From assembly GCF_030813495.1 (NCBI RefSeq), contig NZ_JAUSUI010000005.1, forward strand, positions 248,001 to 312,000: a stretch of DNA of 64,000 nt. The letters are read 5' to 3'. The position numbers and the translations under genes were made by a program. Positions 4,528 to 52,146 of the stretch are shown here, piece by piece (position 1 is the first letter of the stretch; each line of letters starts with the position of its first letter). Under the pieces are notes generated by a model. The model was not told the origin of the DNA, did no database searches, and saw only the letters and a program-made list of their open reading frames with translations. The stretch comes from Ancylobacter polymorphus (lineage in GTDB: Bacteria > Pseudomonadota > Alphaproteobacteria > Rhizobiales > Xanthobacteraceae).

Positions 4528-4535
4528 GGCGGTTA

Positions 4536-4630
4536 GGCTCAGGACCTATTACTTTTTCCAGAGTTGTGATTCACAGTCTCCATTGAGCAGGCTGGCATGG
4601 GTGATTTGTTCCTGCTGAGCGAGCGACAGA
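4536..4630 (+). mobile_element. IS5-family left-end fragment
   Basis: These bases match the left end of the fuller copy at 12026 with four mismatches over about 97 positions, including the GGCTCAGGAC terminal repeat preceded by TA and the start of the transposase gene. The match stops exactly where the IS3 terminal repeat begins (4631), and the rest of the IS5 is absent on the far side. So an IS3 element inserted here and flanking DNA was later lost. Confidence 0.85.
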
Positions 4631-48142: not shown

Positions 48143-48859
48143 CTAGCTCTCGGCCACCGGGTGGATATGCGGGTGCGAATGGGTATGGCTGTGGGGGTGG
48201 CTGTGCAGTGCAGCGGGGATCAGCCGCCCGCCCTCGATCGCCATCGCCCGCGTCGCCAGTTCGGCGATGAAGCCGTCATCATGCGACACCAGCAGCATGG
48301 CGCCGGGAAAGGCGTGCAGCGCCGCCCGGAGACGCTTTCCGTTCGCAGCGTCGACCCCATTGGTGGGCTCGTCGAGCAGCAACACGTCCGGCTTCATCGC
48401 CAGCAGCCCGGCGAGGCAGACGAGACGCTTCTCGCCGCCGGAGAGCCGATGGCTGATGCGCGGCGCCAGCGCGCCAATGCCCAGCGTCGCCAGCACCTCT
48501 TCGGCCCGACGGAACGCCTCCGCCTGGGTGCAGCCGAGATTGAGCGGCCCGAAGGCCACATCCTCGATCACGCTCGGGCAGAACAGCTGGTCGTCGCTGT
48601 CCTGGAAGAGATAGCCGAGGCGCGGACGCAGGGCACGAAAGTCGCGCTCGCTGCGGCAGGCCGCGCCGAACAGCCGGACCTGCCCGGCACTCGGGCGCTC
48701 CAACCCGACCAGCGTGCGCAGCAGCGTGGTTTTGCCCGCGCCGTTCGGCCCGACAATGGCGAGCCGCTCCCCCGCCGCGAGGGAGAGGTTCACCCGGCTC
48801 AGCACGGCGGCGCCGTCGCGGACGACGGTGATCTCTTCAAGGGCAAGCAGCACGCTCAT
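48143..48859 (-). CDS. nikO: ECF nickel/cobalt importer ATPase
   Basis: 238-aa ATPase. Walker A GPNGAGKTT, Q-loop FQDSDDQLFCPSV (DDQ is typical of ECF-type CbiO), signature LSGGEKRLVCL, Walker B VLLLDEPTNG and His switch VSHDDGFIA are intact. The C-terminus is a His-rich tail of alternating His pairs (HSHPHSHTHSHPHIH), probably metal-binding. Last gene of nikKMLQO; its start overlaps the end of nikQ. Confidence 0.92.
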   Translation of the reverse strand: MSVLLALEEITVVRDGAAVLSRVNLSLAAGERLAIVGPNGAGKTTLLRTLVGLERPSAGQVRLFGAACRSERDFRALRPRLGYLFQDSDDQLFCPSVIEDVAFGPLNLGCTQAEAFRRAEEVLATLGIGALAPRISHRLSGGEKRLVCLAGLLAMKPDVLLLDEPTNGVDAANGKRLRAALHAFPGAMLLVSHDDGFIAELATRAMAIEGGRLIPAALHSHPHSHTHSHPHIHPVAES

Positions 48860-49581
48860 AGCCGGTCCGCCAGGGTGAGCGCGAGCCCGAAAGCCAGCGC
48901 GGCCGTCACCCCGGCCCAGTCGCGGCGTGTCGGCGGCGGCAAGGCGAGGCGCGGAAAGCGGCCCTCATAGCCCCGGCACAGCATCGCCTCCTCCACGCGC
49001 TGCGCCCGCGCCAGCGCCCGCACCAGCAGCATGCCGACAAGATGGCCGTAGCTGCGCCAGCTGTGGCGGTTCGAGCCCGGACGGAAGCCGCGCACCCGCA
49101 TCGCTTCCAGGAGGCGCCGTGCCTCGTCGCGGATGAGCGCGAGATAGCGGGCGGTGAGCACGAAAAGCCGCACCAGCGTCTCCGGCACATGGAGCCCGCG
49201 CAGCGCGCCACCCAGCCGTGCCGGCTCGACCGCCCCGAGAAGACCGACAAGGACCAGCGCCGAAGCGGACACCTTGGCGGCGATCAGCGCCGCGCGCGCC
49301 ACGCCCTCGACGCTCGCGGTAAGTGGGCCGAGCGCAAACAGCGGCTGTCCCGGCAGGGTGAACGGCAGGGTGGCGAAGAGCAGCAAGAGGAAGCCTTCCA
49401 CATGCAGCAGCCGCCGCCACAGCTTGGCCGGCGGACGGGACACGGCCACCGCCAGCACCACCACCCCCAGCGCGGCCAGCGCGACGGGCAGCCGGTGCAA
49501 CTGCGACAGGCAGGCAATGAGGACGAAGGCGCCGACGAGGCGCAGGCGCAGATCGCCGGTCGCGGCGGCGTCCGTCTTCAT
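48856..49581 (-). CDS. nikQ: ECF transporter T component (CbiQ/NikQ)
   Basis: 241-aa membrane coupling protein that links the ATPase to the metal-binding S component. About five helices; the two Ala-Arg-Gly coupling motifs of T components are visible as EAMRVRGFRPGS and EEAMLCRGYEGRFP. ATG 49581 overlaps the stop of nikL and follows it without a gap. Confidence 0.9.
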   Translation of the reverse strand: MKTDAAATGDLRLRLVGAFVLIACLSQLHRLPVALAALGVVVLAVAVSRPPAKLWRRLLHVEGFLLLLFATLPFTLPGQPLFALGPLTASVEGVARAALIAAKVSASALVLVGLLGAVEPARLGGALRGLHVPETLVRLFVLTARYLALIRDEARRLLEAMRVRGFRPGSNRHSWRSYGHLVGMLLVRALARAQRVEEAMLCRGYEGRFPRLALPPPTRRDWAGVTAALAFGLALTLADRL

Positions 49582-50132
49582 GCGCGCTGCCCCTTCGCCC
49601 AAAGCGCCATGCCGGCGAGGCCGAGGATGAGGAAGATGCCGGAAAGGATGTCGGCATAGCGCAGGCGCGAATCCATTTGCTCGATCCGCTCCATCAGCGG
49701 CGTCACCTGCCGCTGCACCGCTGCCTCGACCAGCGCGGCCAGCCGGGCCTCGCCTTCCGCTTCCACCGCCGGCGCCGGACGGTCGACGGGTGGCGGCGAC
49801 ACAGCGGCGGCCGCTCCGCCGAAACGCCCGGCCGGCAGCGTCGCGGCGGCGACATGGCCCTCGCGCGTATCGACCGTCACCGTGGCATCAACGGGCGGCT
49901 GCGGCACCGGGAAGGCGAAGCGCCCCTCCCCGTCCGTCGTCCCGGAGGCGAGCGCCGTCCCGGCAGGGTCCTTCGCCGCCCACACGGCCCCGGCGGCACG
50001 GCCGCCGCCAATGAAGAAGGCGTAGCCCGTCACCTCCCCGCCCTCCACCGTGGCGAAGACCTTCAGCTTATGCGCCTGCGCCGGGCCGGCGAAGGCCAGC
50101 GCCAGCAGGAGCGGCAGCAGCAGCCGGATCAT
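49578..50132 (-). CDS. nikL: NikL-type nickel ECF accessory membrane protein
   Basis: 184 aa. Signal/anchor helix at the N-terminus (IRLLLPLLLALAFAGPAQAH, starting from His20 as the likely mature N-terminus), an Ig-like carboxypeptidase-regulatory domain (LKVFATVEGGEVTGYAFF; GTTDGEGRFAFPVP), and a C-terminal helix (ADILSGIFLILGLAGMALW). NikL/NikK proteins replace NikN in KMLQO-type importers. The N-terminal His after cleavage could bind nickel as in NikM; inference. ATG overlaps the nikM stop. Confidence 0.82.
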   Translation of the reverse strand: MIRLLLPLLLALAFAGPAQAHKLKVFATVEGGEVTGYAFFIGGGRAAGAVWAAKDPAGTALASGTTDGEGRFAFPVPQPPVDATVTVDTREGHVAAATLPAGRFGGAAAAVSPPPVDRPAPAVEAEGEARLAALVEAAVQRQVTPLMERIEQMDSRLRYADILSGIFLILGLAGMALWAKGQRA

Positions 50133-50743
50133 GACGTGACGGGCCTCAAGGCCTCGGGCTGCACGCGGGCGAGGAAGGACACCACCGCGCCGGTGACGAA
50201 GGCTTCCACCAGCGCGAGCGGCAGATAGGTGGCGATGACCACGCGCGCCGCCGGGGCGAAATCGCTCGACGACAGCCACAATACCAGCGCCACCATGCCC
50301 CCCGTGCCGAGCACCGCCAGCGCTCCCGCCGCCGCCCCGGCGGCAAAGCGCAGGGATGCGCGCGGCGTGGAACGGATCACCGGCCCCAGCGCCATGCCGC
50401 ACAGCACACCCGGCAGCGCGATGTTCACCGTGTTCACCCCCAGCGTGGTCAGCCCCCCGAAGCCGAACAGCAGCGTCTGCAACAACAGGGCCACCAGCAC
50501 GGCGAGAAAGGTGGCGGGCCCCAGCATCACCCCCATCAGCCCGGCCAGCAGCAGATGCACGCTCGACGGCCCCACCGGCACCGCGACCAGCGAGCCCGCG
50601 AAGAACGCGGCGGCGAGCAGCGCCGTGCGCGGGATCATCCGCTCATCGAGCCACCGCAAACCCAGCGCCACGCCGCCAGCAGCGAGGAGACCGCCGCCGA
50701 TGAGCACGGGCGCGGAAAGCAGGCCGTCGGGAATGTGTGCCAT
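50129..50743 (-). CDS. nikM: Nickel ECF substrate-binding membrane component
   Basis: 204-aa CbiM/NikM S component. The N-terminal MAHIPDGLLS contains the family's His-Ile-Pro-Asp-Gly metal-site motif; here the His is residue 3 rather than 2 (known proteins begin MHIPDG), shifting the amino-terminal Cu/Ni-binding geometry by one residue unless processed. Other family segments: VGPSSVHLLLAGLMGVMLGP with the conserved His, and ALLLQTLLFGFGGLTTLGVN. Confidence 0.9.
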   Translation of the reverse strand: MAHIPDGLLSAPVLIGGGLLAAGGVALGLRWLDERMIPRTALLAAAFFAGSLVAVPVGPSSVHLLLAGLMGVMLGPATFLAVLVALLLQTLLFGFGGLTTLGVNTVNIALPGVLCGMALGPVIRSTPRASLRFAAGAAAGALAVLGTGGMVALVLWLSSSDFAPAARVVIATYLPLALVEAFVTGAVVSFLARVQPEALRPVTS

Positions 50744-50747
50744 AAGG

Positions 50748-51527
50748 CTACTTTCTGACCATATCGGTGGCCTTCACCCAGATCAGCGCGCCCTCTTCCA
50801 CCGGCACCTCCTTGCCCTCGGGCGAGATCATCGGCGCGTCGCCTTCCAGCAGCGCGGCGAAGCCCCACCACCCCGCGCGCGGCATGGCATAGGTGAAGGT
50901 GCCGTTGGCGTCGGCCTTGATCACCTGCGTAACGAAGGCGTCGTTGGGCGGCGTCACCGTGCCGTCATTGATGAACTCGACCTCGACCTCCGCAAAAGGC
51001 GCGGGCTTGCCGCCCTTCAGCACCACGCCGGTGAAGACGTTGCCGGTCCACAACCCGGTCGGCCGGGTCAGTGGCTGGATTTCCACCGGCAGGCCCACCA
51101 GCGCGTCCCAGCCCTCGCCGGAGGCGTAGGAATCGACCGTCACCTTGGCGTAATGGACAATGTACTTGCCCTCGGAAGGCTCCCAATAGGGCTGCGGCTC
51201 GACATAGAAGATCGCCGCGCCGGGCTCCTTCAGCTCATAGGCCAGCGTCCAGGCGCTCTTGCCGTCGACCGGCTTCTCGGTGATCCGCCCGAGAAGATCG
51301 GTCGCCTTGCCGCCGGCCAGCACGCCCAGCTTTGCCGGCTTCTTCATCTCCATGACCGGCCCGCCCTCGACCGGATGGGTAAACACCATCTCCACGCTCA
51401 CCGCGCCGCCCTCCGGCAGCACGTCGGCAGAGGGGATGATCTCCTGGAAATGCGCCAGCGCCGGCAGCCCCATCAGCGGCAGGGCGAACAGAGCGGCGAT
51501 GAGGCCGGAACGGTGGGGGGCGGACAC
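50748..51527 (-). CDS. nikK: Periplasmic nickel importer component (DUF4198)
   Basis: 259-aa secreted DUF4198 protein with a signal peptide (SGLIAALFALPLMGLPALAH) and a His right after the cleavage site (AHFQEIIP). The C-terminal half contains TGNVFTGVVLKGGKPAPFAE and GTFTYAMPRAGWWGFAAL of the family. It is the first gene of the nikKMLQO operon. Start is GTG 51527 with a perfect AGGAGG site. The NikR-type operator lies immediately upstream, overlapping the ribosome-binding region. Confidence 0.87.
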   Translation of the reverse strand: MSAPHRSGLIAALFALPLMGLPALAHFQEIIPSADVLPEGGAVSVEMVFTHPVEGGPVMEMKKPAKLGVLAGGKATDLLGRITEKPVDGKSAWTLAYELKEPGAAIFYVEPQPYWEPSEGKYIVHYAKVTVDSYASGEGWDALVGLPVEIQPLTRPTGLWTGNVFTGVVLKGGKPAPFAEVEVEFINDGTVTPPNDAFVTQVIKADANGTFTYAMPRAGWWGFAALLEGDAPMISPEGKEVPVEEGALIWVKATDMVRK

Positions 51528-51537
51528 GCGGCACCTC

Positions 51538-51569
51538 CTGTATGAATAAAAGGACAAAAAATCATACAG
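51538..51569. promoter_or_regulatory. NikR operator (GTATGA-N16-TCATAC)
   Basis: CTGTATGA-N16-TCATACAG: GTATGA at 51540-51545, a 16-base spacer, TCATAC at 51562-51567. It is an exact match to the E. coli NikR operator GTATGA-N16-TCATAC, with arms extended to eight bases. Located 10 bases from the nikK start and 104 bases from nikR, so occupancy should block nikKMLQO. Confidence 0.9.
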
Positions 51570-51672
51570 ACGCAGCAGTTCGCAGCAAGCGCAAAAAATA
51601 GTCACAACCCGAAAAGTGTTGCGAAAATCAAGGTGATAACCTAGTTTCCATCCCACCGGGAGGGGCGCTTCC

Positions 51673-52146
51673 ATGCAGCGGATCACCATCGCCATCGACG
51701 ACGATCTGGCCGCGCAGCTGGATGCCTTCATCGAACAGAGCGGCGCGGCGAACCGTTCCGAGGCCATTCGCGACATGGTACGGCGCGGCCTCGCCGCCCG
51801 GCCGGACGGGCCGGACGGTGCCGCCTGTTTCGGCGTCGTCAGCTGTACCATCGACCAATCGGTGCGCAACCTCGCCGCGCGGGTGCCGCAAGGCCGGCTG
51901 GAGCGGCACGACCAGACGGTGGCCGCCCTCTCCGTGCCGCTCGACCACACCACCTCGGTGGATGTCACGGTCATGCGCGGCGAGGTCGGCGATATCGCCG
52001 CCTATGCGCAGGCTTTGTTTCTGGAAAGGGGGGTGATGCATGGCGCGCTGAGCCTCATCCCGGTGGCCGAGGACAAGTCACACCATGTCCACAATCACGG
52101 CTCCCCGCACGCCCACACCCATGTGCGGGTGAAAAGCGGGTTCTAG
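51673..52146 (+). CDS. nikR: NikR-family ribbon-helix-helix regulator lacking the nickel site
   Basis: 157 aa. The ribbon-helix-helix DNA-binding arm is intact (MQRITIAIDDDLAAQLDAFI, NRSEAIRDMVRRGL). The ACT-type regulatory domain aligns without gaps to E. coli NikR, where the high-affinity Ni ligands are His76, His87, His89 and Cys95; here those positions are Leu76, Ser87, Pro89 and Ser95. A His-rich tail (HHVHNHGSPHAHTHV) extends past the usual end. So DNA recognition looks conserved, but the normal metal switch is gone. It is divergent from nikKMLQO, whose operator fits NikR exactly. It might respond through the tail, to another metal, or not at all. Confidence 0.88.
   Translation: MQRITIAIDDDLAAQLDAFIEQSGAANRSEAIRDMVRRGLAARPDGPDGAACFGVVSCTIDQSVRNLAARVPQGRLERHDQTVAALSVPLDHTTSVDVTVMRGEVGDIAAYAQALFLERGVMHGALSLIPVAEDKSHHVHNHGSPHAHTHVRVKSGF

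Follow-up and report, generated by a model that had tools for sequence, protein, structure and literature searches.

What controls a nickel importer when the regulator encoded beside it has lost the residues by which its family senses nickel? This question is raised by a nikR gene in a stretch of 64,000 nucleotides from Ancylobacter polymorphus (GCF_030813495.1, contig NZ_JAUSUI010000005.1, positions 248,001 to 312,000 of the forward strand), hereafter called the window. In the textbook view, NikR binds DNA once nickel occupies its square-planar site. An earlier note, made from the window sequence, had claimed that all four ligands of this site are replaced in the encoded protein, that its ribbon-helix-helix arm is preserved, that a His-rich tail follows its normal end, and that the exact E. 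coli NikR operator lies at the promoter of the neighbouring nikKMLQO operon; it proposed that another signal, such as one read by the tail, controls the importer. The four descriptive claims are borne out by the comparisons below, and the proposal is borne out in part.

Loss of the Nickel Ligands in a Fixed NikR Clade

The features of the variant gene are the following.

51673..52146, + strand: nikR variant, 157 residues, with a ribbon-helix-helix arm, a NikR_C (ACT-like) domain, and a predicted His hairpin tail
51673..51807, + strand: ribbon-helix-helix DNA-binding arm, residues 1-45, with R3, T5, E30, and D34 retained
51898..51900, + strand: Leu76 codon (E. coli His76, from alignment)
51931..51933, + strand: Ser87 codon (E. 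coli His87, from alignment)
51937..51939, + strand: Pro89 codon (E. coli His89, from alignment), Pro in 40/40 variants
51955..51957, + strand: Ser95 codon (E. coli Cys95, from alignment)
52084..52143, + strand: C-terminal tail H138-F157, with H138, H140, H148, and H150 invariant in 40/40 variants and a predicted strand at 146-153

The window protein aligns with E. coli NikR (PDB codes: 1q5v, 2hza, 2hzv, and 3od2) over 131 residues without a gap at 38% identity, and a structural alignment, in which it shares the fold of solved NikRs, backs the register that places Leu76, Ser87, Pro89, and Ser95 at the positions of the high-affinity ligands His76′, His87, His89, and Cys95. As judged from this alignment, a square-planar nickel site cannot form from the variant's residues. 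The two proteins are alike in the ribbon-helix-helix arm, in the E30 and D34 potassium site, and in the half-sites and N16 spacing of their operator, whereas they differ in the four ligands, in H62, K64, and Y58 (Q, V, and mostly C in the variant, respectively), and in the fixed His tail, which E. coli NikR does not have. Moreover, the variant adjoins nikKMLQO, while E. coli NikR goes with nikABCDE. The window protein scores above the Pfam cut-offs for PF08753 and PF01402 (54.4 versus 22 and 37 versus 20.5 bits, respectively), as well as above that of NF002815 (123.5 versus 83 bits). R3 and T5 of the arm, which we take to contact DNA, are retained in 40/40 variants. The same holds for E30 and D34, described as the K+ (low-affinity) site of NikR in the part of PMC7055735 consulted.

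Among 30 genomes of the genus, the variant was found in 15, the canonical form in 8 others, and neither in 7, one of the 15 (Ancylobacter oerskovii, G012) having both. A scan of public genomes with two conserved peptides gave 37 loci, of which 36 (L060-L095) encode the variant and one (L096) a canonical NikR that was used in the tree and alignments only. Since 11 of the 36 are genus genomes already counted, the variant set comprises 40 separate genomes: the 15 of the genus and 25 from outside it, including Kaistia, Methylorubrum, Breoghania, Roseomonas, Maritimibacter, and Cereibacter. A canonical ligand occurs at any of the four positions in 0/40 copies; the residues are L37/M2/Q1 at position 76, S39/T1 at 87, P40 at 89, and S34/T4/A1/M1 at 95. 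Across the 40 genomes the replacement residues are fixed while their codons vary synonymously; they therefore look selected rather than decaying, and random decay or sequencing error was rejected as the source of the ligand loss. In a tree of 64 sampled sequences, from which the four ligand columns had been removed, the 24 variant rows group into a single clade (support 100/100), which sits on the side of the tree that holds most canonical proteobacterial NikRs. A single loss of the site would be the simplest reading, as canonical sequences surround the clade in this unrooted tree. Alignment with NikR homologs from related genomes, which the earlier note had suggested as a check, thus finds the ligand loss common to an alphaproteobacterial clade. 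By these sequences, the ligand-less NikR is neither an oddity nor a broken gene but the fixed form of a whole clade, which could not be seen from the window alone, nor could the presence of His-rich tails in canonical relatives too.

A second intact nikR in the genome, raised in the earlier note as something that would undo its reading, was looked for with PF08753, and none was found in the own genome (22 contigs totalling 4.7 Mb, with a listed completeness of 100%). The same family search gave exactly one NikR in each of the 25 non-genus variant genomes, and a protein search gave one match in 14/15 variant genomes of the genus. As far as the assemblies are complete, no canonical NikR was found in addition to the variant in 39/40 genomes, the exception being A. 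oerskovii G012. A truncated NikR-like frame of 94 residues lies near a contig end in G008 (L026 1501-1785), which has a full canonical NikR elsewhere in its genome.

Conservation of the Operator and the Importer

In the window, nikR (+) is divergent from nikK-nikM-nikL-nikQ-nikO (-, 51527 down to 48143). A single operon encodes a DUF4198 NikK, a CbiM-type NikM, NikL, and homologues of CbiQ and CbiO, which is the composition of a NikKMLQO energy-coupling factor nickel importer, and the own genome encodes urease.

50748..51527, - strand: nikK (DUF4198), GTG start, Shine-Dalgarno sequence AGGAGGTG adjoining the operator
50129..50743, - strand: nikM (CbiM family)
49578..50132, - strand: nikL (NF058648 NikL family)
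48856..49602, - strand: nikQ (CbiQ family)
48143..48859, - strand: nikO, ATP-binding cassette (ABC) ATPase with a His-rich C-terminus (HSHPHSHTHSHPHIHP)
51540..51567, no strand: NikR operator GTATGA-N16-TCATAC, exact, between nikK and nikR
51561..51566, - strand: probable nikK -10 element TATGAT, within an operator half-site (TATGAT in 27/33 sites)
51584..51589, - strand: probable nikK -35 element CTTGCT, 17-base spacer

The operator at this importer promoter matches that of E. coli without mismatch and stops 12 bases short of the GTG codon at which nikK starts, abutting the Shine-Dalgarno sequence. No copy arose in 100 shuffles of the window, and chance was rejected as its origin on this ground and on that of a reversed-pattern control, which is absent from the 30 genus and 25 non-genus genomes described below. 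From TATGAT in the nikK-side half-site (27/33 sites) and a TTG 15-19 bases upstream (24/33; shuffled mean 2.6, maximum 9), a looser pattern whose spacing window was chosen after inspecting the sequences, the operator would extend over both the -10 region and the start site. A strict sigma-70 scan found no promoter. A riboswitch at the locus was rejected, the sole match being weak and far below the gathering score.

The exact operator is present in 13/30 genus genomes, all of them variant carriers, and in 15/25 non-genus variant genomes, with the reversed-pattern control in 0/30 and 0/25, respectively. In the wider class, the pattern occurs in 16/385 genomes versus 7/385 for the reversed control, so that outside the variant clade it is close to background. 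The count that is free of selection by the operator comes from nikK genes found by their adjacency to the variant in 27 genomes (23 of the 36 named loci plus the own genome, G013, G020, and G027): an operator with at most one mismatch precedes nikK in 27/27, and 22 are exact. In 33 sites of 32 genomes, these 27 and the five with an unlinked nikK named below (28 exact, 5 with one mismatch; two sites in one genome), half-sites have a mean identity of 98% and spacers 44%; because the sites were picked at one mismatch or fewer, the half-site value is to some extent built in, and both values are inflated by related species. NikM occurs in the same 15/30 genus genomes as the variant NikR, a coincidence not corrected for relatedness. 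Five variant genomes (L064, L065, L087, L088, and L095) have an unlinked nikK with an operator elsewhere in the genome, three of these genes having been located via the operator. In L093, the operator precedes an SBP_bac_5 ABC operon, in L081 a CbiMQO-type operon is preceded by a one-mismatch operator, and in L094 a one-mismatch site lies on a contig carrying a distant NikM. Regulator, operator, and importer are thus tied in evolution.

Possible Modes of Sensing

The classical site cannot be what controls the variant, whose control must come from elsewhere or be lacking altogether: the site cannot form, a search of the genome gave no second NikR, and the regulator is tied to operator and importer. 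The proposal that another signal controls the importer is supported to this extent, while the choice of signal is a matter of the graded readings below. We infer DNA binding, repression, and metal binding by the hairpin, and with them, at about an even chance, that the protein is a functional repressor of nickel import, of the NikR type, which reads its signal at a site other than the ancestral one. A tetramer, expected from homology, would bind GTATGA-N16-TCATAC, where it would overlap the probable -10 element of nikK together with its start, and with ample nickel (or a closely related divalent metal) in the cell it would switch nikKMLQO off. The clade ancestor would have lost the buried square-planar site in a single event, the fixed Leu/Ser/Pro/Ser (LSPS) set taking the place of the ligands. 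Metal would be read by invariant histidines outside the old site, most likely H138, H140, H148, and H150, on a C-terminal β-hairpin that would extend the ACT-like sheet, perhaps with H79, H92, or H123 of the core.

Ten residues, C52, R75, H79, P89, H92, H123, H138, H140, H148, and H150, are invariant in 40/40 variants. The tail motif H-x-H...H-x-H-x-[RKH]-[VI]-x3-[FL], a pattern composed after inspection of variant tails, is found in 40/40 variants versus 0/21 canonical relatives. This comparison set contains the canonical NikRs of genus and class except L019 (a near-copy of L018), L026 (truncated), L027 (the same gene as L024), and L110 and L111 (altered ligands). In the AlphaFold models of the window NikR and of the Cereibacter NikR, 46% identical to it, an extended strand at 121-138 and a returning strand at 146-153 make the same tail β-hairpin, and from the register of such a strand pairing H138, H148, and H150 would face one side. 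The fixed histidines and the predicted hairpin favour a relocated metal site, in line with the suggestion of the tail as sensing element, which is weakened by the His-rich tails of canonical relatives.

These tails open a series of observations that weigh against sensing through a relocated site in a nickel repressor. A His-rich tail (at least 4 His) is present in 16/21 canonical relatives with an intact classical site, and the variant tail may be a nickel buffer. The two AlphaFold models were built from overlapping alignments with common sequences and hence are not independent, and the confidence of the tail, as predicted local distance difference test, is moderate (block means 66, 66, and 79 in the window model; 79, 75, and 79 in the Cereibacter model). 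The window NikR misses the cut-off of TIGR02793, the nickel-responsive NikR equivalog (121.6 versus 175.45 bits). The binding protein of the SBP_bac_5 ABC operon in L093 lies far below the NikA cut-off (102.6 versus 393 bits), and five Methylorubrum genomes keep the variant with no NikM and no exact operator. Finally, in Roseomonas marmotae, which lies outside the 40-genome set, the exact operator stands at the canonical nikR-nikABC locus and the best site of the variant beside nikKMLQO has two mismatches; the operator is therefore not exclusive to the variant and not always kept by it.

Part of this evidence bears on the reading that the variant is inactive on the operator, where another regulator acts, and that its gene is a passenger. 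The R. marmotae sites, with the variant's own degenerate, and the Methylorubrum genomes that retain the variant without nikM are what it would predict, but the DNA-contact arm is retained throughout the 40 variants, operator and variant co-occur even when unlinked (G001, G028, G414, G431, and G438), and another NikR was found in only one of the 40 genomes, which together make the passenger reading improbable. The last of these counts bears also on rescue in a mixed tetramer, with a canonical NikR supplying the ligands. Both genes do occur together in two strains, A. oerskovii G012 and R. marmotae, but with 39/40 variant genomes lacking a detected canonical NikR, as far as assemblies are complete, this rescue was rejected as very improbable.

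The remaining readings concern the protein itself. Metal-free control, by a constitutive repressor or by an ACT-like domain that has become the receptor of a small signal, probably anionic or organic, bound near R75, R78, H79, and H92, is possible though less than likely: R75 and R78, which are new in the variant clade, would allow a small molecule or an anion as signal, but seven His and one Cys are invariant, four of the His in the tail, for which a non-metal sensor has no obvious need, and the adjoining importers are of nickel/cobalt types. In a wider form, to which we lend limited credence, the clade would have dropped direct nickel binding in the allosteric pocket, with the ACT-like domain as receptor for a different signal and with operator and regulon kept; just as tentatively, and jointly with it, the signal might be either a small molecule, anionic or organic, or else a metal complex bound by the His hairpin together with the Arg75/Arg78/His set. 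If the receptor reading is true, the input would have been rewired and the output frozen in the form of the ancestral operator and nickel-import regulon. It is unlikely, in our estimate, that a rearranged core site (H79, H92, H123, C52, and C58) still senses nickel or cobalt while the tail does no more than feed or buffer metal. H79, H92, H123, and C52 are invariant in 40/40 variants, H123 is found in only 52% of canonical relatives, and His-rich tails are common among the latter; on the other side, C58 is Tyr in 8/40 variants, and H79, H92, and C52 are also kept in canonical NikRs with the normal site (100%, 86%, and 90%, respectively), so that something else may account for their conservation.

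Comparison with Known NikRs and Other Ligand Sets

H. pylori NikR (PDB 6mrj and the 2wv* series) has the same fold as the variant. It keeps the square-planar site, according to the title of PDB 2y3y, whereas the variant has lost it. The parts consulted of PMC10781810 and PMC7055735 describe for this protein pH-dependent binding, with control beyond simple nickel loading, and the regulation of several genes, respectively. Canonical alphaproteobacterial NikRs (L017-L025 and L097-L109) come from the same genus or class and mostly have His-rich tails, but they keep the ligand set HHHC, and their tails vary in position and length. At six canonical genus loci, three have a one-mismatch operator, two a two-mismatch site, and one none; the three one-mismatch operators have GTATGC in one half-site. 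In these three genomes (L050 8727, L056 8228, and L058 7797), the operator takes the form GTATGCTG...TCATAC, compared to GTATGA in the variant genomes.

A survey of 398 genomes across the phylum found NikR_C in 47, with 49 matches: 37 HHHC, 5 xHFS, 3 R/YHHT, 2 of the variant clade (own and L215), 1 NLCR, and 1 partial. In the tree, NikR_C subfamilies with xHHT or xHFS ligands (L202, L205, L206, and L210-L214) do not group with the variant clade. The xHFS, R/YHHT, NLCR, and RQPY proteins resemble the variant in having a NikR_C domain with an altered ligand set, but all lie outside its clade, two on long branches, and the xHFS and HHT types still have one or two of the ligands whereas the variant has none. 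The RQPY protein of G070 (L218 5855-6274, - strand), obtained from a separate class search, lacks all four ligands and has no His tail; an exact operator lies upstream of its gene (L218 6289-6316), with a divergent HupE/UreJ nickel permease gene. By its residues, it is apparently a second, independent ligand-less NikR. Ligand change in the NikR family is thus not unique to the LSPS clade, which is the case here with four-ligand loss and with operator, importer, and fixed His pattern conserved together.

No description of a ligand-less NikR clade was found in the open-access literature searched, which leaves out most subscription papers, and the parts consulted of PMC2667541, PMC7055735, PMC10781810, and PMC4486848 do not mention ligand-less NikRs. 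In the part seen, PMC2667541 lists the occurrence of NikR and infers nickel specificity from NikR adjacency. A clade without the textbook trigger site but with operator and importer offers a natural experiment on how the input of a metal sensor can change while its output stays.

Additional Observations on Variant Genomes and Operator Sites

In R. marmotae, plasmids p1318-3 and p1318-4 (L231 and L232) carry the variant NikR with nikKMLQO on one and a canonical NikR with nikABC on the other. A urea transporter gene and urease accessory genes are found close to the variant and nikKMLQO, a neighbourhood that fits with nickel. Both NikRs are annotated as nickel-responsive NikR, an automatic label that, as in this record, relies on a site absent from variant proteins.

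Four of the five Methylorubrum genomes without NikM, each of a different species (L220, L221, L223, and L227), have a one-mismatch site at a similar place, and one-mismatch control patterns also match in those genomes. The genes after these sites are TonB-receptor-like in two and DUF4198-like in two; in Pfam, one gene of each type gave Plug at 73 bits and DUF4198 at 30 bits, the latter below its cut-off of 34.

Three further exact operators are second copies in their genomes, and for those of L041 and L198 no nik gene can be named downstream. The L198 copy (4529-4556; G436, Cohaesibacter) has no recognised nickel gene around it and may be due to chance. The L041 copy (1501-1528; G006) lies about 360 bases upstream of a gene fragment matching TIGR03427, the urea carboxylase-associated urea transporter binding protein, at 284.6 against a cut-off of 333.9, a hint that NikR might control a nickel-free urea route. 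In Roseomonas sp. SXEYE001 (G427), the second exact operator (L197 484-511) lies on a small contig and precedes an additional nikK-like gene.
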